Source of the DNA: an uncultured cyanobacterium
Lineage (GTDB): Bacteria > Cyanobacteriota > Cyanobacteriia > CACIAM-69d
NCBI GenBank assembly: GCA_937883785.1
Contig: CALGDE010000167.1
Coordinates: forward strand, 1-64,000
Length of the DNA: 64,000 nucleotides
Direction: 5' to 3'
The position numbers were made by a program, and so were the translations under genes. Position 1 is the stretch's first letter, and every line of letters begins with the position of its first letter. A model generated the notes under the pieces. It was not told the origin of the DNA, ran no database searches, and saw nothing but the letters and a program-made list of their open reading frames with translations. This document shows positions 31,683 through 59,558 of this stretch, piece after piece.

Positions 31683-33143
31683 TCACTCGTTCATATCTTT
31701 GTAGGTGGCAACGGCAGATGGCGAGATTCTGTTGAGGTAACGGAAGATCCAATACTTAATCACGGCATCTAAAATCACCGGAAAAGTGGCAATAAATAGG
31801 AACATAAAATCGCGATTTTCTGGCAGTCCCAAATGTCTAGAAATGCCCCCCACCACTACTTCCCAGCCATGGGTAGAGTGATATCCCACAAAAATATCAG
31901 TGGATAGAATAATAATAAAAGCCTTGGCACTGTCACTTAAGCCGTACATAATTTCATCAACAAACGACTTAAGAATGGCAATCTCTTCTCGACTGTAAAC
32001 AATCACCAACGCAAAGGCGGCAACAGATAGGAAATCAGCGACGATATTTTTAATGGCGTCGGCGCCAGCGTGGATGGATTCTTCGGCAACTTCAATGGCT
32101 TTTACTGCTAATTCTTCCTCAATTTCTGTTTCCGTAAGGTTATGATCCTCCCGGGCCATATTCCTAAATTCCAGCAGATGTCGATAGTGTTCCAGCTCGA
32201 TTAACGCCTCTTCTTCCATATCAGGATTTAGAAAAACGTCTTCAACTTTTGGGTGATAAAGCTGATCAACAACGGGACCCGCTAGAAAGTTTTTGCACAC
32301 CTGTTGGGTCAACAAAGGCACCAAAATCAAAAGCAAAACAAACTTGAGAGAAACGATGGTTCTGGCTTTAGACGTGCGGTAGTTTTCAATAATTTCCGCT
32401 TCAGAGCGATCATCTAAGTCTCGACGCACTCGATCCAAGGTGGTCAGCAGCGATCGCGGCAGGATGCTGGTGCGGCTGGCGATGGGCTTTTGTCCCACCT
32501 TTTGGACCCTTTCCTTAGGACGACTGGAACGGCTATTTTCGACGGGAAAAGCCTTTTCATCAACGCCATTGGTGTCAGTTTTAATCGCCGAATTTTTAAC
32601 GTCTGAGTCAATGGCAGCGGTAGTGGGAGTGGCAAGGTAGGCGGCAAGAGTGCTGCGATCATAGGAATCGCGAATACGATCAATAAATTCGAGCTTTTTA
32701 AACGTAATAAAAAATGGATCGTTATCCTCTGAATTGATGGTTACGTTGCTATCAGAGGAAGCGGCAGCATTAGTGGAATTTTTGCCGTTTAGGGGGCGAT
32801 CGCGAGCGACAGTATTGATAGTGGGAAGAAAGCGATCGCCGCCGTTAGTTACTGTTCCCTTGGGCGATCGCAAAGACTGCCCAAAAAAGCGACGGCTGGC
32901 GCGAAATTCCAGCAGCCGCACATCAATAACTTCTAGATTTTTACTGAGTTCACTGCGAAAATAAGCCTGCAATCCACTGCCATATTTTTTTTGATTGATG
33001 TCAATGAGTTGTCCATCAAAATATTGATTTTCAATCGCCTGAATGGCTAAGGCTGCGTCGTAGGCATAATCGAGCGATCGCCCCGGCGTTGTTTCATACC
33101 AGCGCCCCGCCGAAACCCAAGCTTTACGAATGGCTGAAAACAC
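31683..33143 (-). CDS. pxcA: Proton extrusion protein PxcA (CemA/CotA)
   Basis: About 486 aa from GTG 33143 (TTG 33149 adds 2). PxcA drives light-dependent Na+-linked proton extrusion, related to the plastid CemA envelope protein. The N-terminus (KAWVSAGRWYETTPGRSLDYAYDAALAIQ) and EVIDVRLLEFRASRRFFGQ are conserved in the family. The variable central Ser/Asn-rich section is about residues 120-240. The C-terminal CemA domain has four transmembrane segments from LKFVLLLILVPLLTQQV onward, ending with YHSTHGWEVVVGGI and RHLGLPENRDFMFLF. The gene is divergent from the helicase-like gene. Confidence 0.93.
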   Translation of the reverse strand: MFSAIRKAWVSAGRWYETTPGRSLDYAYDAALAIQAIENQYFDGQLIDINQKKYGSGLQAYFRSELSKNLEVIDVRLLEFRASRRFFGQSLRSPKGTVTNGGDRFLPTINTVARDRPLNGKNSTNAAASSDSNVTINSEDNDPFFITFKKLEFIDRIRDSYDRSTLAAYLATPTTAAIDSDVKNSAIKTDTNGVDEKAFPVENSRSSRPKERVQKVGQKPIASRTSILPRSLLTTLDRVRRDLDDRSEAEIIENYRTSKARTIVSLKFVLLLILVPLLTQQVCKNFLAGPVVDQLYHPKVEDVFLNPDMEEEALIELEHYRHLLEFRNMAREDHNLTETEIEEELAVKAIEVAEESIHAGADAIKNIVADFLSVAAFALVIVYSREEIAILKSFVDEIMYGLSDSAKAFIIILSTDIFVGYHSTHGWEVVVGGISRHLGLPENRDFMFLFIATFPVILDAVIKYWIFRYLNRISPSAVATYKDMNE

Positions 33144-33331
33144 GATCAAATCCCAACGGTGTAGTTAAGCTGATAGCTGGTCGCCTTTTGCTGTTGAGAG
33201 ATTTGCACAGGATAAACCTCGCAAAATATTGGGCGATTATCCTATCGTTTTAGCGCTCTCCATTGGCTTTTGGGGCGTTTTTAAAGCTCAATTTGAAGTT
33301 AAAAATTTGAAGTTAGGCAATAGGACATATT

Positions 33332-43848: not shown

Positions 43849-44991
43849 TCACCCTTCCTTATTAACATCTTCAATGCCTTTGCCCGCATCCACGGTGCCC
43901 ACTTTTAACAGGCGCCGTAATGCCTGCTTCATCTCGTCCACGGTAGTCGTCGCCGTTCCCACGTGGCGCACCACTAAGCTGGCGGCTAAATTGCCCAAAA
44001 TTGCCGCCTCCCAGGGGCTAGCGCCTTGAGTTAAGGCTAAAGTTAACGCGGCAACTACTGTATCTCCTGCGCCCGTCACGTCGAAAACCTCAGCGCGATT
44101 GAACGCTGGAATATGGTGGACGCGATCGCCCAAATCGTCAGACTCGGCTTTAAATCCCCGCTCAAATAAGCTCATCCCTTCATCGCCGCGGGTAATCAAA
44201 ATAAACTCCGCCTGGGTCTTCTCCAGCAAATCCTGCCCCGCCTGACGCAGCGCTGTTTCAGTTTTGACGCTGTAGCCTACCGCCTGTTCCGCCTCAGGCA
44301 AATTAGGCGTAAACCATGTGGCTCCCCCAAAGCGCGGCAGTCCCCCCTGGGCATCCACCACCACTGTCTCGCCCTTAAGCGCCGATTGAATCACCGACGG
44401 CGTGAACACCCCGTCCCCATAATCAGAACACACCACCACATCCACTGCCGAATCGCCCGCCGAATTATCCGCCGAATTACCAAGGTGGCTGCCGAGGCAT
44501 GCGCCAATGCGCTGGGCTAGAGAATCGCTAATAGTCTCCTGGGGAAGCTCATCTGATTTACGATCCACGCGCACAATTTGCTGGGTTACGGACTGACGAG
44601 CGTGCCCAGAAATGCGAGTTTTGGTCACTGTGGGGCGATCGCCCTCCACCAAAATTCCTGTGGTGTCAATGCCCCGCTGCTCAAAAATTTCCCGCAGTGC
44701 CACCCCCTGGGAATCGTCCCCCACCAGCCCCACTGCTTGTACTTTCCCCCCCAAAGTGGCCAAATTGTAAATGGCATTGGCACCGCCGCCAGGCACCTGC
44801 CGCGTTCCCTCATGGCGAATAATCAGCACCGGTGCTTCCCGCGACACCCGCTCCACCCGACCGGTCAAAAACTCGTCTAACGTTAAATCTCCCACCACCA
44901 GAACCTGTCCTTGATGAAACCGATCCAGCAACTCCACAAGACGAGGAGCCGCTTTCTGTAATTGGCTTGCAAAGGAAGGCAGGTTGGTCAT
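43849..44991 (-). CDS. PfkB-family kinase, RfaE1/HldE-like
   Basis: 380 aa ribokinase-fold sugar kinase. N-terminal VVGDLTLDEFLTGRVERVSREAPVLI and the PGGGANAIYNLATLG loop match the RfaE1 (heptose-7-phosphate kinase) subgroup; the C-terminal DVTGAGDTVVAAL is the PfkB signature 2 with the catalytic Asp. There is no fused adenylyltransferase domain. An in-frame 12-bp triplicated segment (44446-44481) codes the loop SADNSAGDSA, a slippage-type insertion. The role is probably LPS or nucleotide-sugar synthesis, inferred. Confidence 0.85.
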   Translation of the reverse strand: MTNLPSFASQLQKAAPRLVELLDRFHQGQVLVVGDLTLDEFLTGRVERVSREAPVLIIRHEGTRQVPGGGANAIYNLATLGGKVQAVGLVGDDSQGVALREIFEQRGIDTTGILVEGDRPTVTKTRISGHARQSVTQQIVRVDRKSDELPQETISDSLAQRIGACLGSHLGNSADNSAGDSAVDVVVCSDYGDGVFTPSVIQSALKGETVVVDAQGGLPRFGGATWFTPNLPEAEQAVGYSVKTETALRQAGQDLLEKTQAEFILITRGDEGMSLFERGFKAESDDLGDRVHHIPAFNRAEVFDVTGAGDTVVAALTLALTQGASPWEAAILGNLAASLVVRHVGTATTTVDEMKQALRRLLKVGTVDAGKGIEDVNKEG

Positions 44992-45521
44992 TGGCTCGTA
45001 AATAGAAGAAAGGAAAATTGGCTAAGAAACAATAGCAGAATAAATCGAAAATCAAGCCTAATAAAATTCAGAGTGCTCCATGGAAAGCCAGCGGAAAGAT
45101 CAGCGCAAAATCCCATAGACATTCAACGTTGGGCTTCATTTTCGGTTGACCGTGGGGACTCGTAACCATTGGAAATAATTTATAGAAACAGTTGACAGAG
45201 GCGTTACTTTTCTATTGCTCAATCTGTCAGCATTGCGTGATTATATTGCGGGCTTATATCAATCGTCGTGGCTGAGCGTTTTGCCACGTTATTCCACGGG
45301 TTCCGATGGAGATTGGGGCAGGGGGGTAGTGGTCAGATTAAATACCTTCACTGGCTAGCTTGCAACGGCGGGTGAATTCCGATACTACTGAGGCTACGAT
45401 GGAGCAGGTTTAGGCGGCAATATGTCGCGCTGTCCATAGTGGCTATGGTGCTAGAACGGCGACGGGTTGCTTTCGTCGGGGCGGTTCTGAGCCATCTTTA
45501 CTTTTAAATGGAGACGCTTTA
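44992..45521. other. 530-bp intergenic stretch without a clear gene
   Basis: No credible frame or tRNA is seen. A TTGACA at 45192 followed by TATTGC 15 bp later is a weak promoter possibility for transcription toward the lipoprotein gene at 45522. Composition is ordinary. Confidence 0.5.
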
Positions 45522-46004
45522 ATGGTTTGGGGAGTTAAGTCGATTACGGGACCCGTCGCTATTGCGGTGGCGATCGCCCTCGTAGGATGCGAAAGCAAGG
45601 TTGCCCAATGCAACAAGCTGATTGAGGTGGTTAACCAAGGTCAAACGATTAGCCAGAATATCCAAGGCACCGATGCTGCCACGATGGAAAAGCTGTCGAC
45701 GGATTTGCAGGGGCTATCTGAGCAAATCCAGGCTGTTGAGCTGGAAGACGAAACCTTGGTGGGCTTCCGCGATCGCTTTGTGAAGATTTATCAGGATCTT
45801 GGGGGCGCAGCTCAGAAAGTGGGCGGTGCTTTGGCGTCGTTGAACGACATTAAGCCCAATGAAGAGGGGGTCGAGAAGGCTAAGCAGTTACAAACGGACG
45901 TGGAGGAAGCCAGCAAAGTGGGCGACCAAGCCGCTAAGGATGAGGACACATTGGTTAAGGAAGTGAATAACTACTGTGGCGGCACCGCTCCTGAAGGTGG
46001 CTAA
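45522..46004 (+). CDS. Small lipoprotein of unknown function
   Basis: 160 aa. A hydrophobic segment with the lipobox LVGC (Cys about residue 23) indicates a lipid-anchored periplasmic protein. The rest is helical: QCNKLIEVVNQGQTISQNIQ, FRDRFVKIYQDLGGAAQKVGGAL, ending EVNNYCGGT. A second Cys near the start (AQCNK) and one near the end (NNYC) may pair. It is a conserved-looking cyanobacterial type, but its function is unknown. A strong terminator follows. Confidence 0.75.
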   Translation: MVWGVKSITGPVAIAVAIALVGCESKVAQCNKLIEVVNQGQTISQNIQGTDAATMEKLSTDLQGLSEQIQAVELEDETLVGFRDRFVKIYQDLGGAAQKVGGALASLNDIKPNEEGVEKAKQLQTDVEEASKVGDQAAKDEDTLVKEVNNYCGGTAPEGG

Positions 46005-46035
46005 CGTTAACAAGTTGACGGGGCAATAAGCCAAC

Positions 46036-46088
46036 AAAAATAACCGACAGTGAATGCCCTTGCCTTGAAACACTGTCGGTTATTTTTT
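46036..46088 (+). terminator. Intrinsic terminator after small lipoprotein gene
   Basis: AAAAATAACCGACAGTG and CACTGTCGGTTATTTTTT are perfectly complementary over about 17 bp with an 18-base loop, ending in a T-run. Confidence 0.93.
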
Positions 46089-46141
46089 AAAGGGAAGAAC
46101 GTTAAGACAGGATCGACGATTTGGCAGATTTCGGAGATTCG

Positions 46142-46984
46142 GTGGATCGTAACTTGGGCGATCGCCCCAAAAGTCTTTGGTCCCTAAACCAAAGTCAACT
46201 GAATATGCTGAGCCGTTGTCCTCGCCAGTTTCAAGATCAATTTTTAGAGCAGCGATCCCTTCCCGCAAGTCCACAGTTCCATGAGGCAATGGAATGGGGG
46301 CAACGGTTTCATCGCCTTATGGAACGGCATATTCTAGGGTTGCCAATTGAGCCGTGGTTGGCGGGCGATCGCGAGTTGGGTGTGTGTTTCAATGCCTTGC
46401 AACGGTCTTTGGCAAAAACATTTCCCTCCTTTGAAACTTTAACTGGAACCAAGCTTTGTGAACATCGCCGTAGCTTACACATGGGCGATTATTTATTAAC
46501 GGCGATTTATGACGTGCTAATTTTAGAGGAAGAAAGGGGACTAATTATTGATTGGAAAACGGCAGCCTTTCCCCGAAGTCGCACTGACTTAGAAAACGAT
46601 TGGCAAACCAAACTTTACTTGTATTTGCTAGCAGAAACTAGCGTTCAGCCAGTGGAGTCATTGACGATGGTTTATTGGTTTGTGCGCAGCAAAGAATCGT
46701 CGAAGATAATCCCCTCCATGGTGCAGTTTAACTACACTGAAAGCTGGCACCATAAGATTCAAAAAGAACTAGTAAACGTTTTAGAGCACCTAACCCAGTG
46801 GCGTGAAGCTTTCTTAGAAAATAATGTGCCCTTTCCGCAGGACGCTCAAAATAGTGGCTACGGAGACATCCGCGCTAGTGCCCGCAATAAGCCCCTAAAA
46901 GATCTTCCGTCAAGCAATAGTAGACCATCGCTTGAGGTTCCGGCGTGGGACACAATTCCAGCCATTAAGCCTGATAGTTTGTGA
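46142..46984 (+). CDS. Stand-alone RecB-like PD-(D/E)XK nuclease
   Basis: About 280 aa from GTG 46142, which has GGAG 6 nt upstream (TTG 46121 is also possible). The N-terminal LNQSQLNMLSRCPRQFQDQFLEQ is typical of RecB/Cas4-type nucleases. WGQRFHRLMERHILG carries the His motif, and LIIDWKTAAFP with QTKLYLYLLAE gives the D-x-K and QxxxY active-site elements. No four-Cys cluster is present for Cas4-type Fe-S, and no cas genes are near. It may act in recombination or repair with a partner encoded elsewhere. Confidence 0.8.
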   Translation: MDRNLGDRPKSLWSLNQSQLNMLSRCPRQFQDQFLEQRSLPASPQFHEAMEWGQRFHRLMERHILGLPIEPWLAGDRELGVCFNALQRSLAKTFPSFETLTGTKLCEHRRSLHMGDYLLTAIYDVLILEEERGLIIDWKTAAFPRSRTDLENDWQTKLYLYLLAETSVQPVESLTMVYWFVRSKESSKIIPSMVQFNYTESWHHKIQKELVNVLEHLTQWREAFLENNVPFPQDAQNSGYGDIRASARNKPLKDLPSSNSRPSLEVPAWDTIPAIKPDSL

Positions 46985-47022
46985 CGTTAAAATAGTTCTG
47001 AAATTTGTGGATTAGGATGCCG

Positions 47023-47313
47023 ATGAATCTACAAGATGACTCCTTAGATTTAGTCTCAAATTTTTTTAAAATTTTGTCCGATCCAATTCGTCTCAAGATT
47101 CTGTGTGCCTTAGGATCTGAGCCTAAAACGGCGATCGCCCTTAGCTCATCCCTAGGGCTAAAGCCGGCGGAGATTACCCAGCAGCTCAATATCATGGCTC
47201 AGGTTGGAATCGTAAACCGCGATAAATCCGGCAGCAGTATTCACTACGCCATTACTGATAGTAACGTCCTATTCCTTTGCGATATGGTCAGTGATCTTCT
47301 CGTGAATTCCTAA
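47023..47313 (+). CDS. ArsR-family winged-helix regulator
   Basis: 96 aa from ATG 47023, with AGGA 5 nt upstream (an upstream ATG at 47017 is also in frame). The winged helix-turn-helix is visible in FKILSDPIRLKILCALGSEPKTAIALSSSLGLKPAEITQQLNIM. No metal-binding CxC motif occurs in the recognition helix; only two Cys are present (LCAL, FLCDM), so the effector may not be a metal. The pirin gene is convergent. Its DNA target was not found. Confidence 0.85.
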   Translation: MNLQDDSLDLVSNFFKILSDPIRLKILCALGSEPKTAIALSSSLGLKPAEITQQLNIMAQVGIVNRDKSGSSIHYAITDSNVLFLCDMVSDLLVNS

Positions 47314-47347
47314 TGTGAATTAGACAGATTTAGGTTGACCACAAGAA

Positions 47348-47372
47348 AGCTCCCCACCGGAAGAAGGGAGCT
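47348..47372. terminator. Hairpin between the ArsR and pirin genes
   Basis: AGCTCCC and GGGAGCT form a 7-bp stem with an 11-base loop. It is followed by GATACTTTT on the plus strand and TTCTTGT on the minus strand, so it may stop both converging transcripts. Confidence 0.55.
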
Positions 47373-47421
47373 GATACTTTTATCTGGATTGTCAGCGTTA
47401 GTTTTGCTGTATTGCTGTGGG

Positions 47422-48183
47422 CTACATCGCCAGATCGAATAGCAAAATTTCGCTGTCGGACTCTTGAGCAACAATGTCCAACCTGCGGTCAGCGGCTCCA
47501 GGCATTGCGATCGCTGCTCCGTCTCCAACAGCCAACGGCACTAGCTCAGAGGTGTCGGGAGTCTTGATGGCGATCGCCCCCTTGGCCACCTGAAGCCACA
47601 CCTGGCGCGAATCATTAACGGAATAATCCACCGTCTCACCGGCATCGAGCAGCCCGGCATAAAGGCGCACATCTTGGTGAACGGTGATGGGCGGGTTGTC
47701 TCCATCGTCACCGGATACATCACCGGATATGTCGTTGGATGCAATGAGCCGAAGCTTGCCCTGACGCTCCGACCGGGGGAAATAGCGTTCTTCGTAGCTG
47801 GGAGGCAGCGATCGCTGGTTAGGCTGGATCCAAATTTGCAGGAAGTGCACCGGATCCTCAGCGCTGGCGTTGAATTCGCTGTGCAAAATGCCGGTACCAG
47901 CGGACATCCGCTGCACATCCCCAGGGCGCAAAATAGAGCCGTTACCTAGGGTGTCTTTATGCTCCAAAGAACCAGAAAGCACGTAGGTAATGATTTCCAT
48001 GTCCCGATGTCCGTGGGTGTCAAAGCCAGCTCCACCTTGTACCTGGTCTTCATTAATCACCCGCAAACTGCCGTAGCCCATATGGGCAGGGTCGTAGTAG
48101 TGACCAAAGGAAAAACTGTGACGGCTTTGGAGCCAGCCGAAGTTAGCGGAACCGCGATCGCCACCTTTGCGAATCTGAATCAT
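47422..48183 (-). CDS. Pirin family bicupin (YhhW-type)
   Basis: 253 aa. The metal-binding cupin shows FDTHGHRDMEIITYVLSGSLEHKD (H57, H59) and GTGILHSEFN (H101, E103). Such proteins bind Fe or another metal and can have quercetinase activity. The family is usually about 230 aa; the extra length here includes a loop with an in-frame 12-bp duplication (47709-47732; residues SGDVSGD). Start ATG 48183. A TTACTGGGG tandem repeat lies just upstream (48204-48227). Confidence 0.9.
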   Translation of the reverse strand: MIQIRKGGDRGSANFGWLQSRHSFSFGHYYDPAHMGYGSLRVINEDQVQGGAGFDTHGHRDMEIITYVLSGSLEHKDTLGNGSILRPGDVQRMSAGTGILHSEFNASAEDPVHFLQIWIQPNQRSLPPSYEERYFPRSERQGKLRLIASNDISGDVSGDDGDNPPITVHQDVRLYAGLLDAGETVDYSVNDSRQVWLQVAKGAIAIKTPDTSELVPLAVGDGAAIAMPGAADRRLDIVAQESDSEILLFDLAM

Positions 48184-48379
48184 AACTAACCTCTGCCCTT
48201 GATTTACTGGGGCACTTACTGGGGTTTGTTGCTTAAGAAAATTATGATTCAGTTCAATAAAAAAGACAATATATCAATAAAGAGCCTAAGTGTATTCAAT
48301 TTAGAGACAATAAATCTGCCGCGGTAAATTCTTTGAATAGGCTTCACAGCGATCAGAGTTTTTCCAAGCAGAGTTTTGC

Positions 48380-49984
48380 CTAGGAATCGCCAGGGCTTAG
48401 ATTAAATAGAACCACCTGGTGGGTCCAGGCAGGTTCGTTCAAGCTGGTACCTGGAGGGGGGCTGGGGCTGGCGATCACTTCTAAACGACGACGATCAACG
48501 CCGAGATCTTCCAAATAAGACCGAACCGCGATCGCCCGTTGGGATGCTAAAGGACTTTCTGGGCTAGTGCCTTCATTGGGGTGTTGATGACCAATGATTT
48601 CTAGCTGCCACTGGGGATGGGCTTTAAGCTGGTCTGCAATGGGACGCAGTTTATAGGTGAGGTCAGCGGGGAGCACTTCGGCGGATTTTACGTAGAAATA
48701 AATGCGCGTGGCGATCGCCCGAGGCTGTCGTTTTAGCTGATCTTGAACGCCAACTACACCGGGAATTTGCCTAAGCTGCGCCACCAAACGATCCGCAATA
48801 ACGTCCGACTCAACGGTGCCTTCCAAGGTGATACTTTGATTGTCCACAGTGGCACGACTGCGTAAGGCTGCCCCCTCATTGGCGATCGCTAAAAGCTGAT
48901 CCACCTGTTGCTGAATCGCCTGGTCATTGGGAGGCAACTGCACCACCGTCACTTCGTTACGAATGGCGTAGTTGGGGGCAAATTGTTGGGCGACGGTAAA
49001 GGCAGAGGTTTGCAGCGCTGCCGTGGGGACCCGCCCTGACAAAATCACCTCACCATTTTCCACGCGGGATCGCACTCGGTACACCGACAATTCGGGATCC
49101 GTATCCAAGGCGCTGGATAATCGCTGCTGCACCTGGCGATCGCCCCCCGTTACCCAGTGGTGAATCCCCAGCGCCCCTAAAGCAATTACCAAAACAATAA
49201 TTGCCAGCTTAAATTTTGACCATATGCCATCTACTAAAGGAGGCACTTTGGGAGGGGACTGAGGCGGTGGAGCTGCGGGCGCCAGGGCTTCGGGGCGATC
49301 GCCGGTTACCTGTTGTAGCTTTAGCAACGTATTCAGCACCCTTAGCTGAAGGTGCAGCAGTCGTTCAGTGGTATTGCTGACCTTTGAATGGTCAGTGGCG
49401 CTGCGGGCAATAAGGGATCGCGATCGTTGGTAAGACGGCGGTGGTGGTTTTGGTAGCTTTGGCTTTGGCGTTAGCGCCCCTTTTGCCTGGTTACTCACCA
49501 CAACAGAAAGCTGCGGCTGTTCTTCCAGCCATTTGATTTCTAGCTTTTCGGTTTTTGATTGACTTGGTGGAGCGGGAGGAACAGTGTGGGATCCCACTTC
49601 AGATATCTTCGGCGGCGTGTCCTGTGGCGCCCTTTGTAGGGCATTCGGTAAAGTACCCGGTGGAGCATTCGGCGGCGCTGGTGGGGCAAGCGCGGTTTTT
49701 GGCGGTGCTGGAGGCAACTTGGGCGAAGATTTCCCAGGAAGCTTGGGTACGTCAATGGGAGCAGCACTTTTCAAAGGCTGGGACGATTTCTGAGAAGAAC
49801 GCAAATAGCCCTCTGCCGGTACGTCCAAGGCATCAGACAATGCCTGTGAATCCTCCACCTGATCCAAATTCTCAGCCAACAAATCCACCAAATTCGACAG
49901 CAGGTTCATATCTTCAGGAGGAGAGTCACCTGAACTGCCATGATTTAAGGACTGATCGAAAAATTGAGATGAAGAATCTGCCAT
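48380..49984 (-). CDS. BON-BON-OmpA protein with Pro-rich N-terminus
   Basis: 534 aa. Residues 1-190 are Pro/Ala/Ser-rich and likely disordered. A single transmembrane segment lies near 258-275 (FKLAIIVLVIALGALGIHH). Two BON-type domains follow (QVQQRLSSALDTDPELSVYRVRSRVENGEVILSGRV and QQQVDQLLAIANEGAALRSRATVDNQSITLEGTV), then an OmpA-like peptidoglycan-binding domain (residues about 425-525) with IYFYVKSAEV, LEIIGHQHPNEG, SQRAIAVRSYLEDLGVDRRRLEV. It would bridge the plasma membrane and cell wall. It heads the cluster with coiled-coil proteins and an MscS channel. Confidence 0.85.
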   Translation of the reverse strand: MADSSSQFFDQSLNHGSSGDSPPEDMNLLSNLVDLLAENLDQVEDSQALSDALDVPAEGYLRSSQKSSQPLKSAAPIDVPKLPGKSSPKLPPAPPKTALAPPAPPNAPPGTLPNALQRAPQDTPPKISEVGSHTVPPAPPSQSKTEKLEIKWLEEQPQLSVVVSNQAKGALTPKPKLPKPPPPSYQRSRSLIARSATDHSKVSNTTERLLHLQLRVLNTLLKLQQVTGDRPEALAPAAPPPQSPPKVPPLVDGIWSKFKLAIIVLVIALGALGIHHWVTGGDRQVQQRLSSALDTDPELSVYRVRSRVENGEVILSGRVPTAALQTSAFTVAQQFAPNYAIRNEVTVVQLPPNDQAIQQQVDQLLAIANEGAALRSRATVDNQSITLEGTVESDVIADRLVAQLRQIPGVVGVQDQLKRQPRAIATRIYFYVKSAEVLPADLTYKLRPIADQLKAHPQWQLEIIGHQHPNEGTSPESPLASQRAIAVRSYLEDLGVDRRRLEVIASPSPPPGTSLNEPAWTHQVVLFNLSPGDS

Positions 49985-50005
49985 ACACAGAACCGAAATT
50001 TCGGT

Positions 50006-50064
50006 CTACTTGACCTATTGCTACTTGCCCTATCGCTATAGGACCTACTTCTATGTGACCTCTG
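50006..50064. repeat. Four 15-bp degenerate tandem repeats in the OmpA leader
   Basis: CTACTTGACCTATTG, CTACTTGCCCTATCG, CTATAGGACCTACTT and CTATGTGACCTCTG follow one another directly, 22 bp upstream of the BON-OmpA start on its transcript side. The rest of 50065-50443 shows no gene. Confidence 0.75.
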
Positions 50065-50443
50065 TTTAAGGGCATGTCACCAATGGAGAGCCAGATCCCT
50101 GGCGTAAACGGGGTAAACCCCTCGCTAAAACAAAAGAGAGCTGAAACCCTTGCAGCGATCCCCCCTGAAATTCAAATAATGACAGTCCCTATGGATCCTC
50201 AATGGGTCTGCAGTGGAAACTTTACGGAAGGTATTCAACACTCACCTAACAATTCATGAATCTCTATCGCCAATGTATTTACGATTGCGCCTTAGTAACG
50301 TTAATAAATTAATGCTTAGCAGTGCTTTTACGAACAAAAGATAGGGATAGAAAGGGGCTTAAGATCGCCCCTAACATCAGCATAAATAGGAAGGAAAAAT
50401 CCGCTGAATTAGCAACACTAACAACCAGCGCTGGCGATTAACA

Positions 50444-51175
50444 CTAACTGCCGGATAACAGCTTCTCGTCACCATCACCCATATCCTTTAAGGACGGCAC
50501 AAAATCAGTGCCTTTCAGACGCAAGCCCAGCTCGAACAGCATTTCTGCCATATCATCTCGAGCCAATTTCGAATCAGTCATCGACGACATGCGCTTGTCC
50601 AACTCATTAATTAGCGTAGACCGCAGCTCATTCAAATCACCTTGCAGCTTATTTCGCCCTGCCAACATATCGTCTCGCAACGTCGTTGTTTGACGGTCTA
50701 AAGAGTCGTTCAGATTACTTAAATTACCGTTCAGTCGGTTACCTAAAGCATTAATTTGCTCACCAATTTCAGCCCGTTCCCGTTCTTCCTTTTGGGCTAG
50801 GGTCAAAATTTTCTTGTCTGTGGATTCCACAACGCCCTTAACTTCAGCGTAGAAAAGCTGTTTCAAAGCCTCCTCACTGCCGGACAACTTCTTCATCAGA
50901 GCGCTGAGCTGCTGCTGAAGATCCTCGCGATTTTCCTCGTCCTTAGACGCCAGCGCTTTGTTCTTCTTATCGATCGCCTCAAGGGCCGCCTGAAGCTCGC
51001 TGGTGAGCACTTGCTGCACTTCGTCAATGCGACTGCGAGTTTCCTGCTGAAACACCGTTAGGTTGGACTCGAGCTGCCCCATTCGTTCCTGGAGATCCCG
51101 TATCTGAGGTCCCACCAGCACGTCACGAATTTGCTCAATATTGCCCAAGCGATCCTGCAAATTACCAGTTGTCAT
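50444..51175 (-). CDS. Cytoplasmic coiled-coil protein (shared DxLVxP motif)
   Basis: 243 aa, almost wholly helical and charged with heptad patterns (SELQAALEAIDKKNKALASKDEENREDLQQQLSALMKKL and onwards), so a long coiled coil without a transmembrane span. At residues 10-36 is LGNIEQIRDVLVGPQIRDLQERMGQLE, which aligns with residues 183-209 of the larger coiled-coil protein at 53628. The C-terminus DMAEMLFELGLRLKGTDF forms a separate small domain. No known family is recognised. The gap to BON-OmpA is 459 bp and to MscS 261 bp. Confidence 0.75.
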   Translation of the reverse strand: MTTGNLQDRLGNIEQIRDVLVGPQIRDLQERMGQLESNLTVFQQETRSRIDEVQQVLTSELQAALEAIDKKNKALASKDEENREDLQQQLSALMKKLSGSEEALKQLFYAEVKGVVESTDKKILTLAQKEERERAEIGEQINALGNRLNGNLSNLNDSLDRQTTTLRDDMLAGRNKLQGDLNELRSTLINELDKRMSSMTDSKLARDDMAEMLFELGLRLKGTDFVPSLKDMGDGDEKLLSGS

Positions 51176-51436
51176 TTAATTCCTCCTACTTCACCGTGCC
51201 AGTGTAGTTTATTCGGTTCGACTATTTAAACCTTAGATTAACCGCTCAAAATTAGCGGCTTTATTATGGAAATAATGGTCAGGAAAACTTAAATAAATTG
51301 CTTAGCGAGCTACCGTAAAACCAAGTTAATTGACCTGGATTAACGATAGCTTTTGGGACACAGTATCGATTGCCTTTGGACACTTTTAGAAACCTTGTGT
51401 CATGGTGCTGTGTCCTCCAGCTTCAATTTTTCAATA

Positions 51437-53407
51437 TTACGACCCTTTATTTTGGGGCGGTGAGTTATGGCTGGAAGGCTGGTTGGGGCGCTGCACGGAG
51501 AAGGAGGGGGATGGGTTGGACTGAGTGTTGGCCGGCGGGGGAGACGGGGCGACGCGACGAGAGTTGGGACGACCTTGGCGGGGGGACCGACTTTGGCGGG
51601 GCGTAGGCTGGCGCGTGTGTAGGTCCACCTGGAATAGGTTGCCCAGGGGATTGAGCTGGAAGCCAGGGGCAGTGTAATTTTCGGGCAGGTAGCTTTCGGG
51701 GAGGGTGCTGGTGTTGCCGTCCCGTACAGCGGAATAGGTGGGGGAGAGGATTTCGATGCCGGCGACGTTGCATTGGTCTTGAATATTTTGGTGCAGGTCC
51801 GATAGAATCCGCTCCATTTCGTTGGGATGGTTCGTAAAAACCTTCACCTCGTACGCCACAGAAAAGTCCCCTAACCCCACCTGAAAAATTACCGGTGCTG
51901 GATTGCTAATTACGTAATTAGTGGCGATCGCCGCTTTACCGAGTACCTGGTTCACCTCTCGCCAAGGCACGTCATAGCCAAGGGTGATCTGGGTGGCGAA
52001 GGACACGGGCTGTTGAGTTTCGCGAATGGAGGCGCTGTAGTTAATAATGTTGCCGCTAAGGAGGGCAGCGTTGGGGATGGTGATAATGACGTTGTCGAAG
52101 GTGCGCAGCCGGGTTACCAGCAACAGCTTTTCCTCCACGTCCCCCAGCAAGTCACCAAAAGCCACGCGATCGCCCACCTGGAAAGAGCGGGTATAAATCA
52201 AAATAATCCCGGCGACGGCATTGGACATGGCTCCCGTTGATCCCAAGGACACCACCACACCAATCACCAATGACACCCCCTGGAATGCGTCGGAGCCAAA
52301 GCCTGGAAGTAGGGGAAAGCCTAACACCGTGGCTAGGGCAATCAGGAAAAACGCCACCAAACGATAGGTGGGTTTTGCCCATTCTCGATAAAAACCAGGC
52401 AGCTTAATGGCACCGTCGTGCAGCTGCATAAACAGCGGATGTACGGTTTTAAGGGCATAGTGGCACAGGGCAACGATTAGGCAAATGCCAAAAAAGTTGG
52501 GCAGGTACGCAATGGCGGCTTCCCCCGCCTGTTGCAGGGTGCCAGACAGCTGGGACGCTACCACCTGCCGCAGTCCGCGGGTAAAGGGAAACAGCCCTAG
52601 GGCATAGATACCGTAGGCAATAACAGCGGCGGCAAATAGAATGCGCCGCAGCCATTGGAGGGATTGCATGGCGAGGGCGCTGGCTTGGGCCGCCGGCAGC
52701 AGTTGGAGCCCCATCACGGTGAGGGAGGGCAAAAACGGTCCCTTTTCCGGCGGGAATCGTCGATTAACCCGTCTCATTGCTGCTTTCAGCAACAGCCGCA
52801 ACCCCAACAGCAGCAGGGTGGCAATAATCAAACGGGCGATCGCCCAAGCCACATAGCCAAAACTATTTTCCTGACGGTAAATGATCACGCCATTGCGAAT
52901 GGCTTCTAAATACTGGTTGGAAAGGCGATCCAACGTGGTGTTGGTGGCCGTGGCATCCGCCTCCGTCACCACCATTACCGGCAGATCTCCAGCGCGAATG
53001 TAAATCACCTCCCCCTCCCGGGCAGGGGTCAGGCTGTCCACGCTGACTTCCTGGGACTGGGCAAGGGCTTCGATGTTTCGGGTAACCGTTGCGGTGCGAT
53101 CTGGAATGGACTGCACCCCGTATTCCGAAGTAATGAAAAACAATGGCTCGCCGTTTAAACTGACGGGCAAACGGCTAACTTCTGCCGACTCAGTCACCTC
53201 TTCCGTGGTGTCTGAGGGGGTGTCCTGGGCAGAGTCAGCGTCTTGGGCCCAACTGGGAACCGTTGAGGTTAGCAGGCTCCATAGGGCAATGGTGCACGCC
53301 ACGACCCCAAACCACCGAAATCGCCGTCGCCAAAGGGTAACGGAAAGCCCTTTGAGTCCTTTAAGCCCTCGGAACTTTACAAAAGGGGACTGCTGCCACC
53401 AAATCAT
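51437..53407 (-). CDS. MscS-family mechanosensitive channel
   Basis: About 656 aa from ATG 53407, with GGGGGTG 5 nt upstream. A signal peptide (WFGVVACTIALWSLLTSTVPSWAQ) leads to a periplasmic domain (residues about 40-190), then several transmembrane segments. The pore-lining TM3 is Gly/Ala-rich (VSLVIGVVVSLGSTGAMSNAVAGIILIYTRSFQVGDRVAFGDLLGDVEE), and the MscS beta domain and cytosolic vestibule follow. The last 100 residues are Pro/Ser/Asn-rich. It releases solutes on hypo-osmotic shock. The neighbours suggest a cell-envelope cluster. Confidence 0.9.
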   Translation of the reverse strand: MIWWQQSPFVKFRGLKGLKGLSVTLWRRRFRWFGVVACTIALWSLLTSTVPSWAQDADSAQDTPSDTTEEVTESAEVSRLPVSLNGEPLFFITSEYGVQSIPDRTATVTRNIEALAQSQEVSVDSLTPAREGEVIYIRAGDLPVMVVTEADATATNTTLDRLSNQYLEAIRNGVIIYRQENSFGYVAWAIARLIIATLLLLGLRLLLKAAMRRVNRRFPPEKGPFLPSLTVMGLQLLPAAQASALAMQSLQWLRRILFAAAVIAYGIYALGLFPFTRGLRQVVASQLSGTLQQAGEAAIAYLPNFFGICLIVALCHYALKTVHPLFMQLHDGAIKLPGFYREWAKPTYRLVAFFLIALATVLGFPLLPGFGSDAFQGVSLVIGVVVSLGSTGAMSNAVAGIILIYTRSFQVGDRVAFGDLLGDVEEKLLLVTRLRTFDNVIITIPNAALLSGNIINYSASIRETQQPVSFATQITLGYDVPWREVNQVLGKAAIATNYVISNPAPVIFQVGLGDFSVAYEVKVFTNHPNEMERILSDLHQNIQDQCNVAGIEILSPTYSAVRDGNTSTLPESYLPENYTAPGFQLNPLGNLFQVDLHTRQPTPRQSRSPRQGRPNSRRVAPSPPPANTQSNPSPSFSVQRPNQPSSHNSPPQNKGS

Positions 53408-53627
53408 GAAACACCCCCGTAACATAGAATACGGCCACAAAAAAATTATAGTCTCGGAATTCGAAAGTCCAGAAACGGCTTCAACAATGAGCTTCAGGAA
53501 ACAAGCCGCAGGAGTCGGGGCAGACGCCGACTGGTCAATTGCGTTTAGGCTTAAGGAAGCTTAGGAAAGCTCCAGAAAAATTTGGTTTTTGCTTTCTCCA
53601 TGCTCGCCCGTCTATCCAACGTCGTTT

Positions 53628-55259
53628 ATGTCAGACCCTAATGCTAAACCCTCCAATGATGAAGGGGGCACGCAGCCTAGTGGTTCCCCGCCAAATTTCC
53701 CACAAACCTCCTCCACCGGGAGCAATATCGGGAACAGTACAAACCCATCCCTGAGCCACGCCCAAAGCCCTGGGAACTCCGATTCATCGTCGGGGGGAAA
53801 TGTGGAGAATACGGATGCGGTTCTTAGTAGTGCCGGGGATTCCTCCAGTGCTTCGGAGCAGCTGGCCCAGCTCTTGGGGCTCCACATTCCCATTCCTAGC
53901 TATACCCCTCCTGATGGTCCGCCGGAGGAGTTGGAGTTCAAGCCGAGCTCAAAGGTGGAGATTGAGGCGTTTCAACTGCCTCAGCGATCGCCCCCGCCAG
54001 ACAACGAGTCCTTAACAGAAATTTACCAGCGGCAAGTGGCTCAGCGTCCCCCTCAGTCCGAGTCGGAAGTTGATTTTCGTCCAGCGCCTCGCCCCACACC
54101 GGTGCCCGCCCCCACCCAAATTCCCGCCAGCCTGTCAGAGCTAGCGGAGACCCAGCTTCCTAAGAAGGGCTTGGGAGATTCCGTGAATGTGCTTCAGGAT
54201 ATTTTGGTACGCCCGGAGCTAAAGGAATTTCGGGGACGTTTGGAGAGTCTGGAGGACCACACTGCCAAGCTGGATTCTGCCCAGAAAAATCTGGGGGCGC
54301 AAATGGGAGACCTGCGCCAGGAAATCGACCAGGCGATCGCCCAGGTGATTAATCAGCTAGTAGATGAACGGTTTGCCCAGCTGGAAACGGACTGGCGATC
54401 GCGCATTGACCTGTATTTCCAAGAATCGTTTCAGGGGCTGTTTACGGAATATTTTGAACGTCACATTGAACAAAGGTGGCCCAAGCTGGTGGGGCGTTTA
54501 GCCCAGCAGCTAGCGGGTCAAATGAACCGCATCAACGGGCGTTTAGATCTATTGGAATCCCGCGTTCAGGAGATGTCCACCACCCTAGACACCACCGTAC
54601 GTAGCCTGCGAGATATTTCGCCAGATTTTGAGGCGGGGGTACGCATTGGAGAAGTGGAAAAACGCCTTAAGGGGTTAACGCAAAATTTAGCGTCGTTGGC
54701 TGGGGGGCTGGGAGCAGATTCTTTGGCGGCTTACTCTGAGCTGCAAAAAATGATGGCGGAGGACGGAATCACCGAAGAGACGAACCAGTTGTCGGAACCC
54801 GTTTCCCCGGAAGAAACCATGGTGCAGCTTGAGGAAGTGGAGCATAACCTAGGACAGTTGGGGAACGGTATCCAGGAGTTAAATGAGGAGATTGATCGCC
54901 ACGAAGAGCCTTTGCCGGATTCTATGGGGGCAGGAAATCGCCTGAAGAAAATAGAGGAGCGACTCAAGCAGCTCACCTTTGCCCTGGTGGCGATCGTGCA
55001 AATTTTGCAGCAGCGCCCGGAACAATGGGCGCAGGATCCTGAACTGGGCGATCGCCTGAGATTTGTGGAGCAGGAACTAGGAATGCTATCCGATCAGGTA
55101 ACCTACCTGTCTCAGAGTTTGCCTGAAGCGCCTGAGGAGCCGGAGATGGTTAGCAGCAGCCTATCAATTCGCGTTAAAGGGGTGGATCCTCGATGGAATG
55201 CTTCCCAACAGTGGGGTGACGAGGAGGATGCAGTCTTGGAGGAGGACAATGTTGAATAG
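53628..55259 (+). CDS. Large coiled-coil protein (shared DxLVxP motif)
   Basis: 543 aa from ATG 53628; a longer frame to 53589 is unsupported. Residues 1-170 are Ser/Pro/Gly-rich and disordered. At about 186-209 VNVLQDILVRPELKEFRGRLESLE matches the motif of the smaller coiled-coil protein (50444-51175). Long coiled coils follow (HTAKLDSAQKNLGAQMGDLRQEIDQAIAQ, FAQLETDWRSRIDLYFQESFQGLF, and more through residue 500). No transmembrane span is seen. It is divergent from the MscS gene; the pair flanks a 220-bp control region. Function is unknown; it may be a scaffold. Confidence 0.72.
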   Translation: MSDPNAKPSNDEGGTQPSGSPPNFPQTSSTGSNIGNSTNPSLSHAQSPGNSDSSSGGNVENTDAVLSSAGDSSSASEQLAQLLGLHIPIPSYTPPDGPPEELEFKPSSKVEIEAFQLPQRSPPPDNESLTEIYQRQVAQRPPQSESEVDFRPAPRPTPVPAPTQIPASLSELAETQLPKKGLGDSVNVLQDILVRPELKEFRGRLESLEDHTAKLDSAQKNLGAQMGDLRQEIDQAIAQVINQLVDERFAQLETDWRSRIDLYFQESFQGLFTEYFERHIEQRWPKLVGRLAQQLAGQMNRINGRLDLLESRVQEMSTTLDTTVRSLRDISPDFEAGVRIGEVEKRLKGLTQNLASLAGGLGADSLAAYSELQKMMAEDGITEETNQLSEPVSPEETMVQLEEVEHNLGQLGNGIQELNEEIDRHEEPLPDSMGAGNRLKKIEERLKQLTFALVAIVQILQQRPEQWAQDPELGDRLRFVEQELGMLSDQVTYLSQSLPEAPEEPEMVSSSLSIRVKGVDPRWNASQQWGDEEDAVLEEDNVE

Positions 55260-55444
55260 GGCGTGTCATCACCTAAGGGGCAGAAGCCTTATACAGTGCG
55301 GAGTCTACGCCCTTTCAAAATAAGACCGATGGGGGGCTGCCCCCTCTGTAGTTACTGGCTTTGAGATTTAAATGATGACAGCCCTTAGCATCATGGCAAA
55401 TAGCATCATGATGAAAACAGCGAAGATGAGGCGGAGGCACTAGC

Positions 55445-57145
55445 GTGAGTCAGGTTCAGCTTGAGAAACAGCCCCAAAGGCAGCCCCAAGGTCATGCGGC
55501 GCTAGTGGGGGCTGGACCAGGACATAGTCAATATTTGACGGCTCAGGCTCACCAGGCGATCGCCCAGGCGGAGGTGCTGATTTACGATGCTCTGGTGGAC
55601 CCTCGACTGCTGGAGCTAATTCCACCCCACTGCGAAACCATCGACGTGGGCAAGCGCGGGGGACAGCGATCTGCCCGCCAGGATGATATTAATCGGCTTC
55701 TAGTGCACCATTGCCAGTTGGGGCAGCGGGTGGTGCGCTTAAAAAGTGGCGACCCGTTTATTTTTGGGCGCAGCGGCTCGGAAATTCAGGCGCTGGTGGA
55801 TGCAAGCTGCTCTTTTGAGGTGATCCCTGGATTGTCCAGCGCCATCGCTGGTCCCCTATTTGCGGGCATTCCTTTAACGGACCCAGTGCTCAGTCGTGGC
55901 TTTGCCATTTACAGCGCCCATGATTTGGATGCATTGAACTGGGAAGCGTTAGGCACCTTGGAAACCTTGGTGTTTTTAATGGGCGGGCGAGCTTTGACGG
56001 GCATTATTGAACGGCTTATCCAGCGAGGTCGATCTCCCCACACCCCCGTCGCGATCATCCGAGCGGCAGGACAGGCGGATCAGGAGATTTGGAGTGCCAC
56101 CTTGGACACCATTGCCGTTCAAACCGCCGGCATTCGCCTGTCCCCGTGCATTATCGTCATCGGTGCCGTGGTGGAGCTGCGTCACTGCTGGGGTAATTGG
56201 CAAAATTCCGCAATGGGCGATCGCCTGCCACCGTTCACCAAAATTGACCGTCCCAGTGGGGATTCCAGCGGCACTGGCGATCGCCACCCACCCACCTTGG
56301 CCACCCCACCGGACTCCCGCCCCCTCGCCGGACGCACCATTTTGGTCACCCGCGCCGCTGGTCAAGCCGGACCTTTTACCGCCCAGCTTGCGGAATTGGG
56401 AGCCACGGCGTTGGAATTACCTGCCCTAGAAATCGGTGCCCCATCTAGCTGGGATCCCTTTGACAATGCCCTGCAAAATTTAGGCAAAACTCATTGGCTG
56501 ATTTTGACCTCCGCCAACGGTGTGGAGGCCTTGTTTCAGCGGCTGCGCCACTTGGGACTGGACGGGCGATCGCTGGCGGGAATCAAAATCGCCGTGGTGG
56601 GAAAAAAAACCGCCAAAGTGCTTGAAAGCTATGGCATCGTTCCGGATTTTACCCCCACCAACTTTATTGCCGATGCCCTAATTGCAGAATTTCCCGACGA
56701 TCCTGCCCACCAAACCATTCTGTTCCCCCGCGTCGAAACGGGCGGTCGCGACGCCCTAAGCAAGTATTTTCGAGAACGGGGCGCAAATTTGGTTGAAGTT
56801 TCCGCCTACGAATCCCGCTGTCCCGACACGATTGACCCCACTGCTTGGCAAGCGCTGAAAGATCACCATGTGGACGCCATTACCTTTGCCAGTTCCAAAA
56901 CTGTGATCAATTTTTGTCGACTGGTGGAAGGGGCGATCGCCGCCGATCAAATCCCCATCAATGGCAAAGATCCTATCAGCGCCTTATTGCAAGGAATCTG
57001 CATCGCATCCATTGGTCCCCAAACCTCTGAAACCTGCCAAAAATATCTGCATCGATTTGATATGGAGGCGAACCCCTATACCCTGGATGGCCTAGCCCAA
57101 AGCTTGGTGAGTTGGTTTGTGCGCGATGGTATCCCTGGAATTTAG
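55445..57145 (+). CDS. cobA-hemD: Fused uroporphyrin-III methyltransferase / uroporphyrinogen-III synthase
   Basis: 566 aa from GTG 55445. Residues 1-250 are SUMT: [54 protein letters not shown], and [13 protein letters not shown]. After a linker, residues about 305-560 are HemD: [57 protein letters not shown]. The fusion couples uroporphyrinogen III formation with its methylation toward siroheme/cobalamin. Odd: the first motif has His where most SUMTs have Asp (VGAGPGD). No other tetrapyrrole gene is adjacent. Confidence 0.9.
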   Translation: [566 protein letters not shown]

Positions 57146-57343
57146 CTGAACTCAATTGCCCCTATCGGCGGCAGCAGAACTCCCCCGCACTTGCCCCAAA
57201 ACGGTACGACTTCCAGGGGCGTTTGCTTAAAGTTTTCACCCAGCGATCAGCTTTTGGCAGCCCTCTGTAACAAGGGACATTTTTAATTGAAAAATTTGTG
57301 GCATGATAAGCCAGTCCTAAGTGTTAAATAAAAATTTAAGAAT

Positions 57344-57682
57344 ATGGCATCCATTCAATTCATCCTCGGTCGCGATGAGCCCATCATTCCCGACGTCAAG
57401 TTGTTCCGATCCAAGGATGGATCTAGTGGTCAAGCCAAGTTCTTTTTCGAGAAGGCTCAGTCCTTGATTGATATGGCCGCTGGCGACGAAATCTTGGGCA
57501 TGTATTTGATTGACGAAGAAGGGGAAATCACCACCCGCTCTGTCAATGCCAAGTTTATTAACGGTCAGCCGGCTGGATTGGAAGCGGTGTGTAAGCTCAA
57601 CAGCCCCGCCGATTGGGATCGGTTTATGCGGTTTATGGAGCGTTACGCTGAGCAAAATGGTCTGGGCTTTGCCAAGTCTTAA
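57344..57682 (+). CDS. psb28: Photosystem II assembly factor Psb28
   Basis: 112 aa, the usual size. The sequence [36 protein letters not shown] is diagnostic of Psb28, with [27 protein letters not shown] and [20 protein letters not shown] downstream. It binds the cytosolic face of the PSII assembly intermediate RC47 and is soluble. It is preceded by an AT-rich 200-bp gap, so probably has its own promoter. Confidence 0.95.
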
Positions 57683-57871
57683 CTTCAATGCCAAAGCTTG
57701 ACCAAGGGTTAGCTCGACGGCAAAAGCGACAAGTAAAGTTCAGCTTTTTTCCCTCAATCACGGGGAATCGATGAGCAGCTTCATGCTGTGTCTCTGTGGC
57801 AAATCTTCCTTGGTAAAGTGGCTGTTGGCAAAGTTGCTGGCTGAAGTTTTTACCCTCAAAAGATTCCCTCT

Positions 57872-57895
57872 CCCCCCTGAATAAGGGGGGCTTTT
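57872..57895 (+). terminator. Intrinsic terminator after psb28
   Basis: CCCCCC and GGGGGG pair around TGAATAA, followed by CTTTTTATT. It lies 190 bp after psb28 and just before moaB. Confidence 0.7.
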
Positions 57896-57911
57896 TATTC
57901 GGATAACGTGT

Positions 57912-58427
57912 ATGGCAACTCAACCCCATCCCGATCGCCTCGACTCAACATTAACGGTCCTACACTGCGCCATTTTGACCGTTAGCGACACTCGTACCCC
58001 TGAAACGGACAAAAGCGGCGCCCTTGCAAAAGCAAAATTAGACGGCGATGGACACATAATCGCCCATTACCAGATTCTCCCGGACGAGCCCGACCGCATT
58101 GCCCCGGTGGTAAGCGCCTGGGCTGCTGATTCCGCCGTTGATGTGGTTATTCTTAGCGGCGGCACGGGCATTGCCCCTCGAGACACCACCTATGAAGCGA
58201 TCGCCACACTGCTGCATAAAATCATCCCTGGCTTTGGAGAACTGTTTCGCCAATTGAGCTACCAGGAAATCGGATCCCGAGCCATGACCTCCCGGGCGAT
58301 CGCCGGCAGCATTAACAGCACCCTGATTTTTTCCCTGCCTGGCTCCAGCAATGCCGTTCGCCTCGCCCTCGATGCCTTGATTTTGCCCGAGCTACGCCAC
58401 CTCCACCGCCTGCTTAATCCCCAATAG
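57912..58427 (+). CDS. moaB: Molybdenum cofactor biosynthesis protein MoaB
   Basis: 171 aa. MogA/MoaB fold: AILTVSDTRTPETDKSGA, VVILSGGTGIAPRDTTYEAI, GFGELFRQLSYQEIGSRAMTSRAIAGSIN and IFSLPGSSNAVRLALD, the molybdopterin adenylyl-transfer family motifs. In cyanobacteria MoaB substitutes for MogA in Moco synthesis, needed for nitrate reductase. No other moa or moe gene is adjacent. Start ATG 57912; the frame starts 17 bp after a strong terminator. Confidence 0.92.
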   Translation: MATQPHPDRLDSTLTVLHCAILTVSDTRTPETDKSGALAKAKLDGDGHIIAHYQILPDEPDRIAPVVSAWAADSAVDVVILSGGTGIAPRDTTYEAIATLLHKIIPGFGELFRQLSYQEIGSRAMTSRAIAGSINSTLIFSLPGSSNAVRLALDALILPELRHLHRLLNPQ

Positions 58428-58481
58428 GTTTAAACTCGTTGGGTCCAAAGCGTCGATAGCTACTGGCTTTAAAATTGGGAC

Positions 58482-59558
58482 CTAGCTAGGGCGACGGAAG
58501 ATCACTTCGCTGCGGGTAATGGTCACATCGTAGGCACCAAAGAAATTTTGTCCCAATAGGCCCACTTCCATGGTGGGGGCGATCGCTGCTCGAAGATTCT
58601 TCGCCTCCAAATTGCCCACTTTTATCTGCCCTAATCGAGCCACCTGAAACACCACCCCCTGTTGGCTAGGGGTGTTGGCGCGGACGGACCCCACCGGCTC
58701 CAGCCCCAGCATATTTGCCATTGCCTGTGTGACTACCGTGGTGCTGGCCCCCGTGTCCACCATCATCGGAAATCCCTGCCCATTAATTTGCACCACGATA
58801 ATGGGAATCCCACCAAAGCGCTTGCGGATGGGCACCTTAGTCACGGTGCTACTGCTTTGGGTGGCTTGGGTGGCTTGGGTCGCCGATGACGATGCGGAGC
58901 CTCGGGGGGCAGCAGGAGGGGCAGGGGCTGCACTTCGGGTGGCGCTTCTAGCTGGGGATCCGGCGGCTGCGGATGCAGTTCGTGCCGGTGCCTGTTGAAT
59001 ACGAATGGGCGTAGGCGCCTGGGGAATCTGAGACGCTCGCTGTTGGGCGTAGGCTAGATTTTTGCTGTACTCGGCGATTTTTTTGGATGCCCGCTCATCA
59101 GAACCCTCAATGGTCTTCAGTAAATTAATCGCCTCTTGCCATCGAGACACCACAAATTCCCAGTCAGACATTGCCCGCGCCGACTGGGATAGTTTTGCTG
59201 CGCTGTAGGCTTTGTTTAAAGCGAATTTATAAGTGTCTCCCGTTTCATTGCCAGCGTTCGGCAATGCCTGAGCCGGGACCTCTTTGGGCGCTGGTTGCGG
59301 GGGCTGGTTGGGGGATTGGCTGGCAGCGGTTGAAGCTTGAACTGGCGTAGCGGAAGGGACAGCTTTTGAACTTTCTGCTTGCTCCGGTTGTGTTTCTACT
59401 GCCGACTGTGGCGAAGATTCCGACGACAGGGGAGGCACACAACCCGCTAAGGCTAAGGCTAAGACCGCTGCTGGCATTGATATCACTGCCGACGCCTTTA
59501 CCGATTTCGAGGATCTTTTTGAAACGTTTCCTAAATATCGCAACGAAGAGAAAACCAT
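58482..59558 (-). CDS. Retropepsin-like aspartic protease lipoprotein
   Basis: 358 aa. A signal peptide with lipobox LALAGC (Cys near residue 40) indicates a lipoprotein. Residues 45-100 are Ser/Pro/Gln-rich, then a helical region (KFALNKAYSAAKLSQSARAMSDWEFVVSRWQEAI) of a type seen beside such protease domains. A low-complexity linker follows, and residues about 245-355 are a single retropepsin domain with the active-site DTGAS (D268) and GLLGQNFF. Dimerisation would complete the active site. A 9-bp triplicate (58858-58884) codes TQATQATQ in the linker. Substrate is unknown. Confidence 0.85.
   Translation of the reverse strand: MVFSSLRYLGNVSKRSSKSVKASAVISMPAAVLALALAGCVPPLSSESSPQSAVETQPEQAESSKAVPSATPVQASTAASQSPNQPPQPAPKEVPAQALPNAGNETGDTYKFALNKAYSAAKLSQSARAMSDWEFVVSRWQEAINLLKTIEGSDERASKKIAEYSKNLAYAQQRASQIPQAPTPIRIQQAPARTASAAAGSPARSATRSAAPAPPAAPRGSASSSATQATQATQSSSTVTKVPIRKRFGGIPIIVVQINGQGFPMMVDTGASTTVVTQAMANMLGLEPVGSVRANTPSQQGVVFQVARLGQIKVGNLEAKNLRAAIAPTMEVGLLGQNFFGAYDVTITRSEVIFRRPS

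Follow-up and report, generated by a model that had tools for sequence, protein, structure and literature searches.

The gene cluster was examined within the whole 64-kb stretch of DNA analysed (the window), and its four open reading frames were found at the coordinates given by the first-pass annotation. P0001 (48380–49984, minus strand) encodes a BON-OmpA protein of 534 residues, assigned using Pfam and homologues. P0002 (50444–51175, minus strand) encodes a coiled coil of 243 residues, which family alignments and 80 named relatives assign to the coiled-coil family (CC) of the Group 1 Rup system, and P0003 (51437–53440, minus strand) encodes a channel of the MscS family. P0004 (53628–55259, plus strand) encodes a 543-residue protein in which profile searches indicated a stand-alone N-terminal segment of RupM together with a long coiled coil, RupM being the name given here to the OmpA membrane protein that partners Rup. 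The likely start of P0004 is the ATG at 53628, translation from the TTG at 53589 giving 556 residues, and P0003 possibly starts at the ATG at 53425 or 53407. A genome search revealed one copy each of P0002 and P0004 in the genome of the window. The intergenic gaps of 261 and 459 bp, and the divergent transcription of P0004 from the channel gene, do not suggest a single tight transcript, and scans for promoters and terminators at the cluster gave results at chance level. No rup GTPase gene was present in the neighbourhood of P0002, and no GGDEF/EAL, histidine kinase or similar output module was recognised on reading the flanking open reading frames from 43849 to 59558. Further away in the window, an inward-rectifier-like potassium channel and a CemA/PxcA-like protein were noted by eye (29595–30599 and 31683–33149), possibly marking an ion-homeostasis neighbourhood.

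P0003 was identified as an MscS-family channel, for which gating by tension is predicted, from the Pfam entries MS_channel_2nd and MS_channel_3rd and a five-member subtype alignment; the MscS beta-domain matched at 5.5e-20 (71.7 bits) and the MscS C-terminal domain at 2.1e-11 (44.5 bits). With the threshold applied, MscS homologues were widespread, occurring in 110 of the 390 genomes, and six channels were set apart by scores of 731–1000 bits compared to 715 bits or less for the rest. These were the channels of the window and of genomes G319, G008, G002, G032 and G097. The profile contained five of these six genomes, G097 being found by the profile; G002, G032 and G008 had been picked by channel similarity, and the G319 locus (L075) had entered through its coiled coil. 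A P0004-like gene adjoined the channel gene in all six genomes, divergently in five, and none was present in the 1.5 kb flanks of the next 25 or so MscS homologues (715 bits or less). Comparison of the GNLxxxDL pattern revealed a subtype-specific cytoplasmic tail in P0003 (LNPLGNLFQVDL, 51620–51655, minus strand), which was found in 6/6 of the P0004-associated channels and in 0 of about 28 other homologues among the matches listed.

Neither P0002 nor P0004 matched a Pfam family above cut-off. The weak matches of these two coiled coils to apolipoprotein, ZorA, Rad50 and other Pfam and NCBIfam entries were far below the cut-offs and were rejected as coiled-coil noise. A set of 32 relatives, both Rup-type and orphan, could be aligned with P0002 over its full length, and by this homology P0002 is the coiled coil of the Rup system. 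Systems of Group 1 Rup small GTPases, predicted and uncharacterised, have been described with a gene neighbourhood made up of rup, a coiled-coil protein of the cytoplasm, a protein combining a conserved unknown domain, a transmembrane helix and an OmpA domain, and an output module (GGDEF/EAL or histidine kinase) (Wuichet and Sogaard-Andersen, 2014; PMC4316618). In the literature searched these systems were named in that paper alone. The gene order coiled coil, RupM, Rup was present in 66 of the 80 fetched loci of named P0002 relatives, the remaining loci being mostly contig ends, orphans or the MscS-linked variant. Relatives of P0002 and P0001 adjoined one another in several sampled relatives, with a Ras-like small GTPase next in most. 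The earlier statement that no named system has this composition was therefore revised, as P0002 and P0001 correspond to both of the uncharacterised Group 1 Rup partners; a literature search for a published system combining MscS, OmpA, BON and coiled-coil proteins found none.

The AlphaFold2 model of P0002 was a single continuous helix of approximately 200 residues (residues 3–201). In the coiled-coil tree the window and L075 copies fell within a supported clade (100/99) that contained no Rup-linked members, its other five members being orphans. The orphan coiled coils of this clade (L050:9145, L051:9249, L215:8649, L073:9992 and L074:4932) were longer than P0002, at 249–315 residues, and had no Rup, OmpA or MscS gene nearby.

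The N-terminus of P0001 is proline-rich and cytoplasmic and is followed by one transmembrane-like segment at approximately residues 257–275, a BON domain (282–348), a second BON-like domain (354–419) and an OmpA-like domain (429–505). The Pfam matches were 3.4e-16 for BON and 1.3e-8 for OmpA, the latter with 35.6 bits against a cut-off of 27.2, and the RupM-domain profile gave no match to P0001. By its domain content P0001 is thus the C-terminal TM-BON-BON-OmpA half of RupM without the longin-like domain described below. In known OmpA/Pal proteins, a conserved aspartate (GH-x-D) and an arginine bind diaminopimelate. The OmpA domain of P0001 retains the arginine and has GHQH in place of GH-x-D; the aspartate was missing in all MscS-linked copies and present in 26 of the 41 family members counted. 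The MscS-linked OmpA domains may therefore not have peptidoglycan as their periplasmic ligand in the customary manner, and the description of this protein as peptidoglycan-bound in the first-pass annotation became doubtful.

The segment of P0004 homologous to the RupM N-terminus, with the shared motif included, lies at 54177–54410 on the plus strand. A profile built from RupM N-termini only matched the P0004-like proteins of L075 (5.5e-14), G097 (1.2e-9), G008 (7.8e-9) and G032 (1.9e-8) and did not reach the window protein (E approximately 0.2), which is too divergent, so that its link to RupM goes through its P0004-like relatives. With a profile of five P0004-like proteins from which the window was left out, E-values were 1e-9 for the window P0004 and as low as 1.6e-19 for RupM N-termini; the best reversed sequence in the same search scored 2.5e-6 and was beaten by 95 of 110 RupM open reading frames. 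When the P0004-family profile was used in a six-frame search of the 390 genomes, the matches following its own family were mostly RupM N-termini. The P0004 family was present in exactly seven of these genomes, namely the six with this MscS subtype and a congener of the window organism. A conserved C-terminal tail of the type LSIRVxGV, identified from alignments and the G097 copy, is common to all the P0004-like proteins and reads LSIRVKGV in P0004 (55161–55184, plus strand). On these profile matches P0004 is regarded as homologous to the cytoplasmic N-terminal segment of RupM, encoded here as a protein of its own.

The motif shared by P0002 and P0004 was located by translation at the positions first reported, residues 18–36 of P0002 (DVLVGPQIRDLQERMGQLE, 51068–51124, minus strand), where it coincides with conserved alignment columns, and residues 191–209 of P0004 counted from the ATG at 53628 (DILVRPELKEFRGRLESLE, 54198–54254, plus strand). 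Direct comparison of the two proteins by BLASTP was uninformative due to the coiled-coil background. Comparison of 40-column blocks of the two families using hhalign gave E=1.9e-6, a score equalled by 0 of 200 column-permuted controls; as the blocks had been cut by pattern around the motif this test is somewhat biased, and the argument rests instead on the uncut profile searches with P0004-like proteins and RupM N-termini given above. A profile of the P0002 family only ranked P0004-like proteins and RupM at the top among non-members. Judged by these searches, the motif is truly homologous in the two families and more than a chance resemblance; it is the core of the RupM N-terminal segment and recurs at the N-terminal end of P0002. 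The original view of two coiled coils with one docking motif was thus upheld for the existence of the motif and amended for P0004, approximately 90 residues of which are homologous to the RupM N-terminus.

The cytoplasmic domain of RupM was examined using L082:11331–12050 and homologues in L077–L152. It was covered by no Pfam family, and a PDB sequence search gave nothing convincing. The AlphaFold2 model obtained from 31 sequences had a mean pLDDT of 68 and the order b-b-a-b-b-b-a, the strands and last helices being better modelled and the loops and N-terminal helices poor. Foldseek comparison of this model with the PDB was led by longin/roadblock-type structures, including Sec22b (2.6e-4), Mon1-Ccz1 (7.6e-4) and MglB (1.1e-2), with further matches to AP sigma subunits, TRAPP, Ykt6 and Ragulator. 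The longin/roadblock fold is the usual platform for Ras-like GTPases. The RupM domain is accordingly modelled, at low sequence similarity and moderate model confidence, as a plausible longin/roadblock-like GTPase platform, plausibly for Rup.

The genome of the window contains a sole Rup homologue (G000:C142:57726; L059:10664–11257), with no coiled coil or OmpA gene adjoining, and a complete RupM, a BON-OmpA protein of 698 residues (G000:C151) encoded beside an adenylate/guanylate cyclase. The Rup system of this genome is scattered, with the PAS-cyclase and RupM on C151 (L041:4556–8873), Rup on C142 and the coiled coil in the window. PAS-type proteins with an adenylate/guanylate cyclase domain were found beside RupM at L041:4556, L042:9541, L043:4712 and L052:4588, the domain being tested with Pfam in L041 and similar by eye in the other three. 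This type of output was not named in the 2014 description of Rup. A second, divergent type of Rup locus, consisting of coiled coil, RupM, Rup and a short output-like protein, was observed in G246 and G106 (L217:6444–9821 and L218:3794–7212).

The MscS-linked variant was rare, being found in 6 of 390 genomes, and an order-wide extension of the search gave no further members. The full layout of the window, P0004-like protein, MscS, coiled coil and short BON-OmpA protein, was repeated in L075 of Oscillatoriales cyanobacterium M59_W2019_021 (G319), and the complete four-gene set on one contig occurred in the window and L075 only. G008 contained the P0004-like protein, MscS, coiled coil and OmpA across two contigs meeting inside the coiled-coil gene. 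G097 contained the P0004-like protein, MscS and BON-OmpA, and G002 the P0004-like protein and MscS with the OmpA gene not beside the channel. In G032 the P0004-like protein and MscS were accompanied by a RupM-type OmpA protein keeping the longin-like domain, its OmpA copy being interrupted by a stop; this arrangement is an intermediate form. The BON-OmpA genes lay within approximately 8 kb of the channel in the window, G319, G032 and G097. The coiled coil was not beside the channel in G002, G032 and G097, and was far away in G002 and G097. Several of these assemblies are fragmentary, and for some family models the sequences used in building were among the members later counted, leave-out or independent searches being used where possible. 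In the MscS locus of G008 the neighbour of the P0004-like gene is a GGDEF/EAL-like protein (L049:1984–4455), whose N-terminal membrane segment by eye resembles a voltage sensor. The neighbourhoods of relatives showed that the co-location first seen in the window is kept in other genomes, and the suspicion of a linked assembly was strengthened, the four genes representing a conserved association.

As P0001 lacks the RupM domain and P0004 corresponds to the N-terminal half of RupM, the cluster holds a split RupM minus the GTPase platform. The locus is best read as encoding a coiled-coil scaffold in the cytoplasm that is connected both to a trans-envelope protein of the BON-OmpA type and to an MscS channel. 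The homology and identity of the parts are held with high confidence. The fuller account, that the locus carries a rare new form of the known but uncharacterised Group 1 Rup scaffold, with the MscS channel replacing the GTPase branch and the parts working as set out here, is given a little less than even confidence. P0002 would form a long cytoplasmic rod, and P0004 would lie alongside it, docked by way of the shared N-terminal helical motif; this motif may also join the coiled coil to RupM in the Rup system. The LSIRVxGV tail of P0004 would bind the GNLxxxDL cytoplasmic tail of the channel, P0001 would tie the assembly to the periplasm, and the scaffold could thereby position the channel or influence its gating in response to envelope strain. 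The formation of a physical complex by the cluster proteins appears slightly favoured, and a modulating effect of the scaffold on channel gating may be proposed tentatively. A more specific form, considered unlikely as a whole, is a tethered MscS channel whose cytoplasmic tail is held by a coiled-coil scaffold fixed to the envelope through BON-OmpA, so that wall or envelope strain, beyond bilayer tension alone, would set its gating, with a Ras-like GTPase driving the same scaffold elsewhere.

The absence of the coiled coil from the vicinity of the channel in G002 and G097 and the divergent orientation of P0004 would also be consistent with co-regulation only, the channel and scaffold sharing a locus through an osmotic or envelope stress response without forming a complex and the scaffold acting as in Rup systems. 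This appears rather unlikely given how tightly this channel subtype is linked to a P0004-like protein (6/6), each having its private conserved C-terminal tail. Filament-forming coiled-coil-rich proteins are known in cyanobacteria (PMC7002697), and in view of this literature P0002 and P0004 could be intermediate-filament-like organisers of the envelope, the channel being one of several clients. The predicted single helix of P0002 and the orphan coiled coils of its clade without channel or OmpA neighbours are in keeping with such a cytoskeletal landmark, which is nevertheless judged distinctly unlikely. It is very unlikely that the cluster is the decay product of a Rup locus that lost Rup, the longin domain and the output module, leaving relic genes beside an unrelated MscS gene: these parts are indeed missing, the G032 OmpA copy is interrupted and the genome of the window still carries Rup and a full RupM at other places, but the intact reading frames, the repetition of the layout in distant families (window, L075 and G097) and the conservation of the motif and of the tails speak for selection.

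The Rup-variant reading suggests that one envelope scaffold can be connected to a molecular switch, Rup, in some genomes and to a membrane channel in others. The MscS variant gives the Rup scaffold a concrete membrane client, which suggests a general scaffold role of holding or reporting envelope strain. If the coupling is true, it would be an example in bacteria of a mechanosensitive channel held by a tether, one that is testable with four genes. The longin/roadblock-like fold indicated for the RupM domain makes the Rup system itself testable.

When the locus was compared with Group 1 Rup systems, it shared the coiled-coil family, the C-terminal part of the OmpA membrane protein and the RupM N-terminal segment homologous to P0004. 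It differs in having no rup gene, output enzyme or longin-like domain, in the splitting of RupM into P0004 and P0001 and in the addition of an MscS channel. The likeness to MglA/MglB and other longin/roadblock GTPase platforms is confined to the predicted fold of the RupM cytoplasmic domain, and as this domain is absent from the window the variant would not work like an MglA/MglB switch. Compared to the peptidoglycan-binding OmpA/Pal proteins, the OmpA domain of P0001 is above the Pfam cut-off but lacks the diaminopimelate-binding aspartate. P0003 shares the beta and C-terminal domains of the MscS family, and its periplasmic N-terminal domain is common in cyanobacterial MscS homologues, whereas the GNLxxxDL cytoplasmic tail and the constant P0004-like neighbour are additions of its own subtype.
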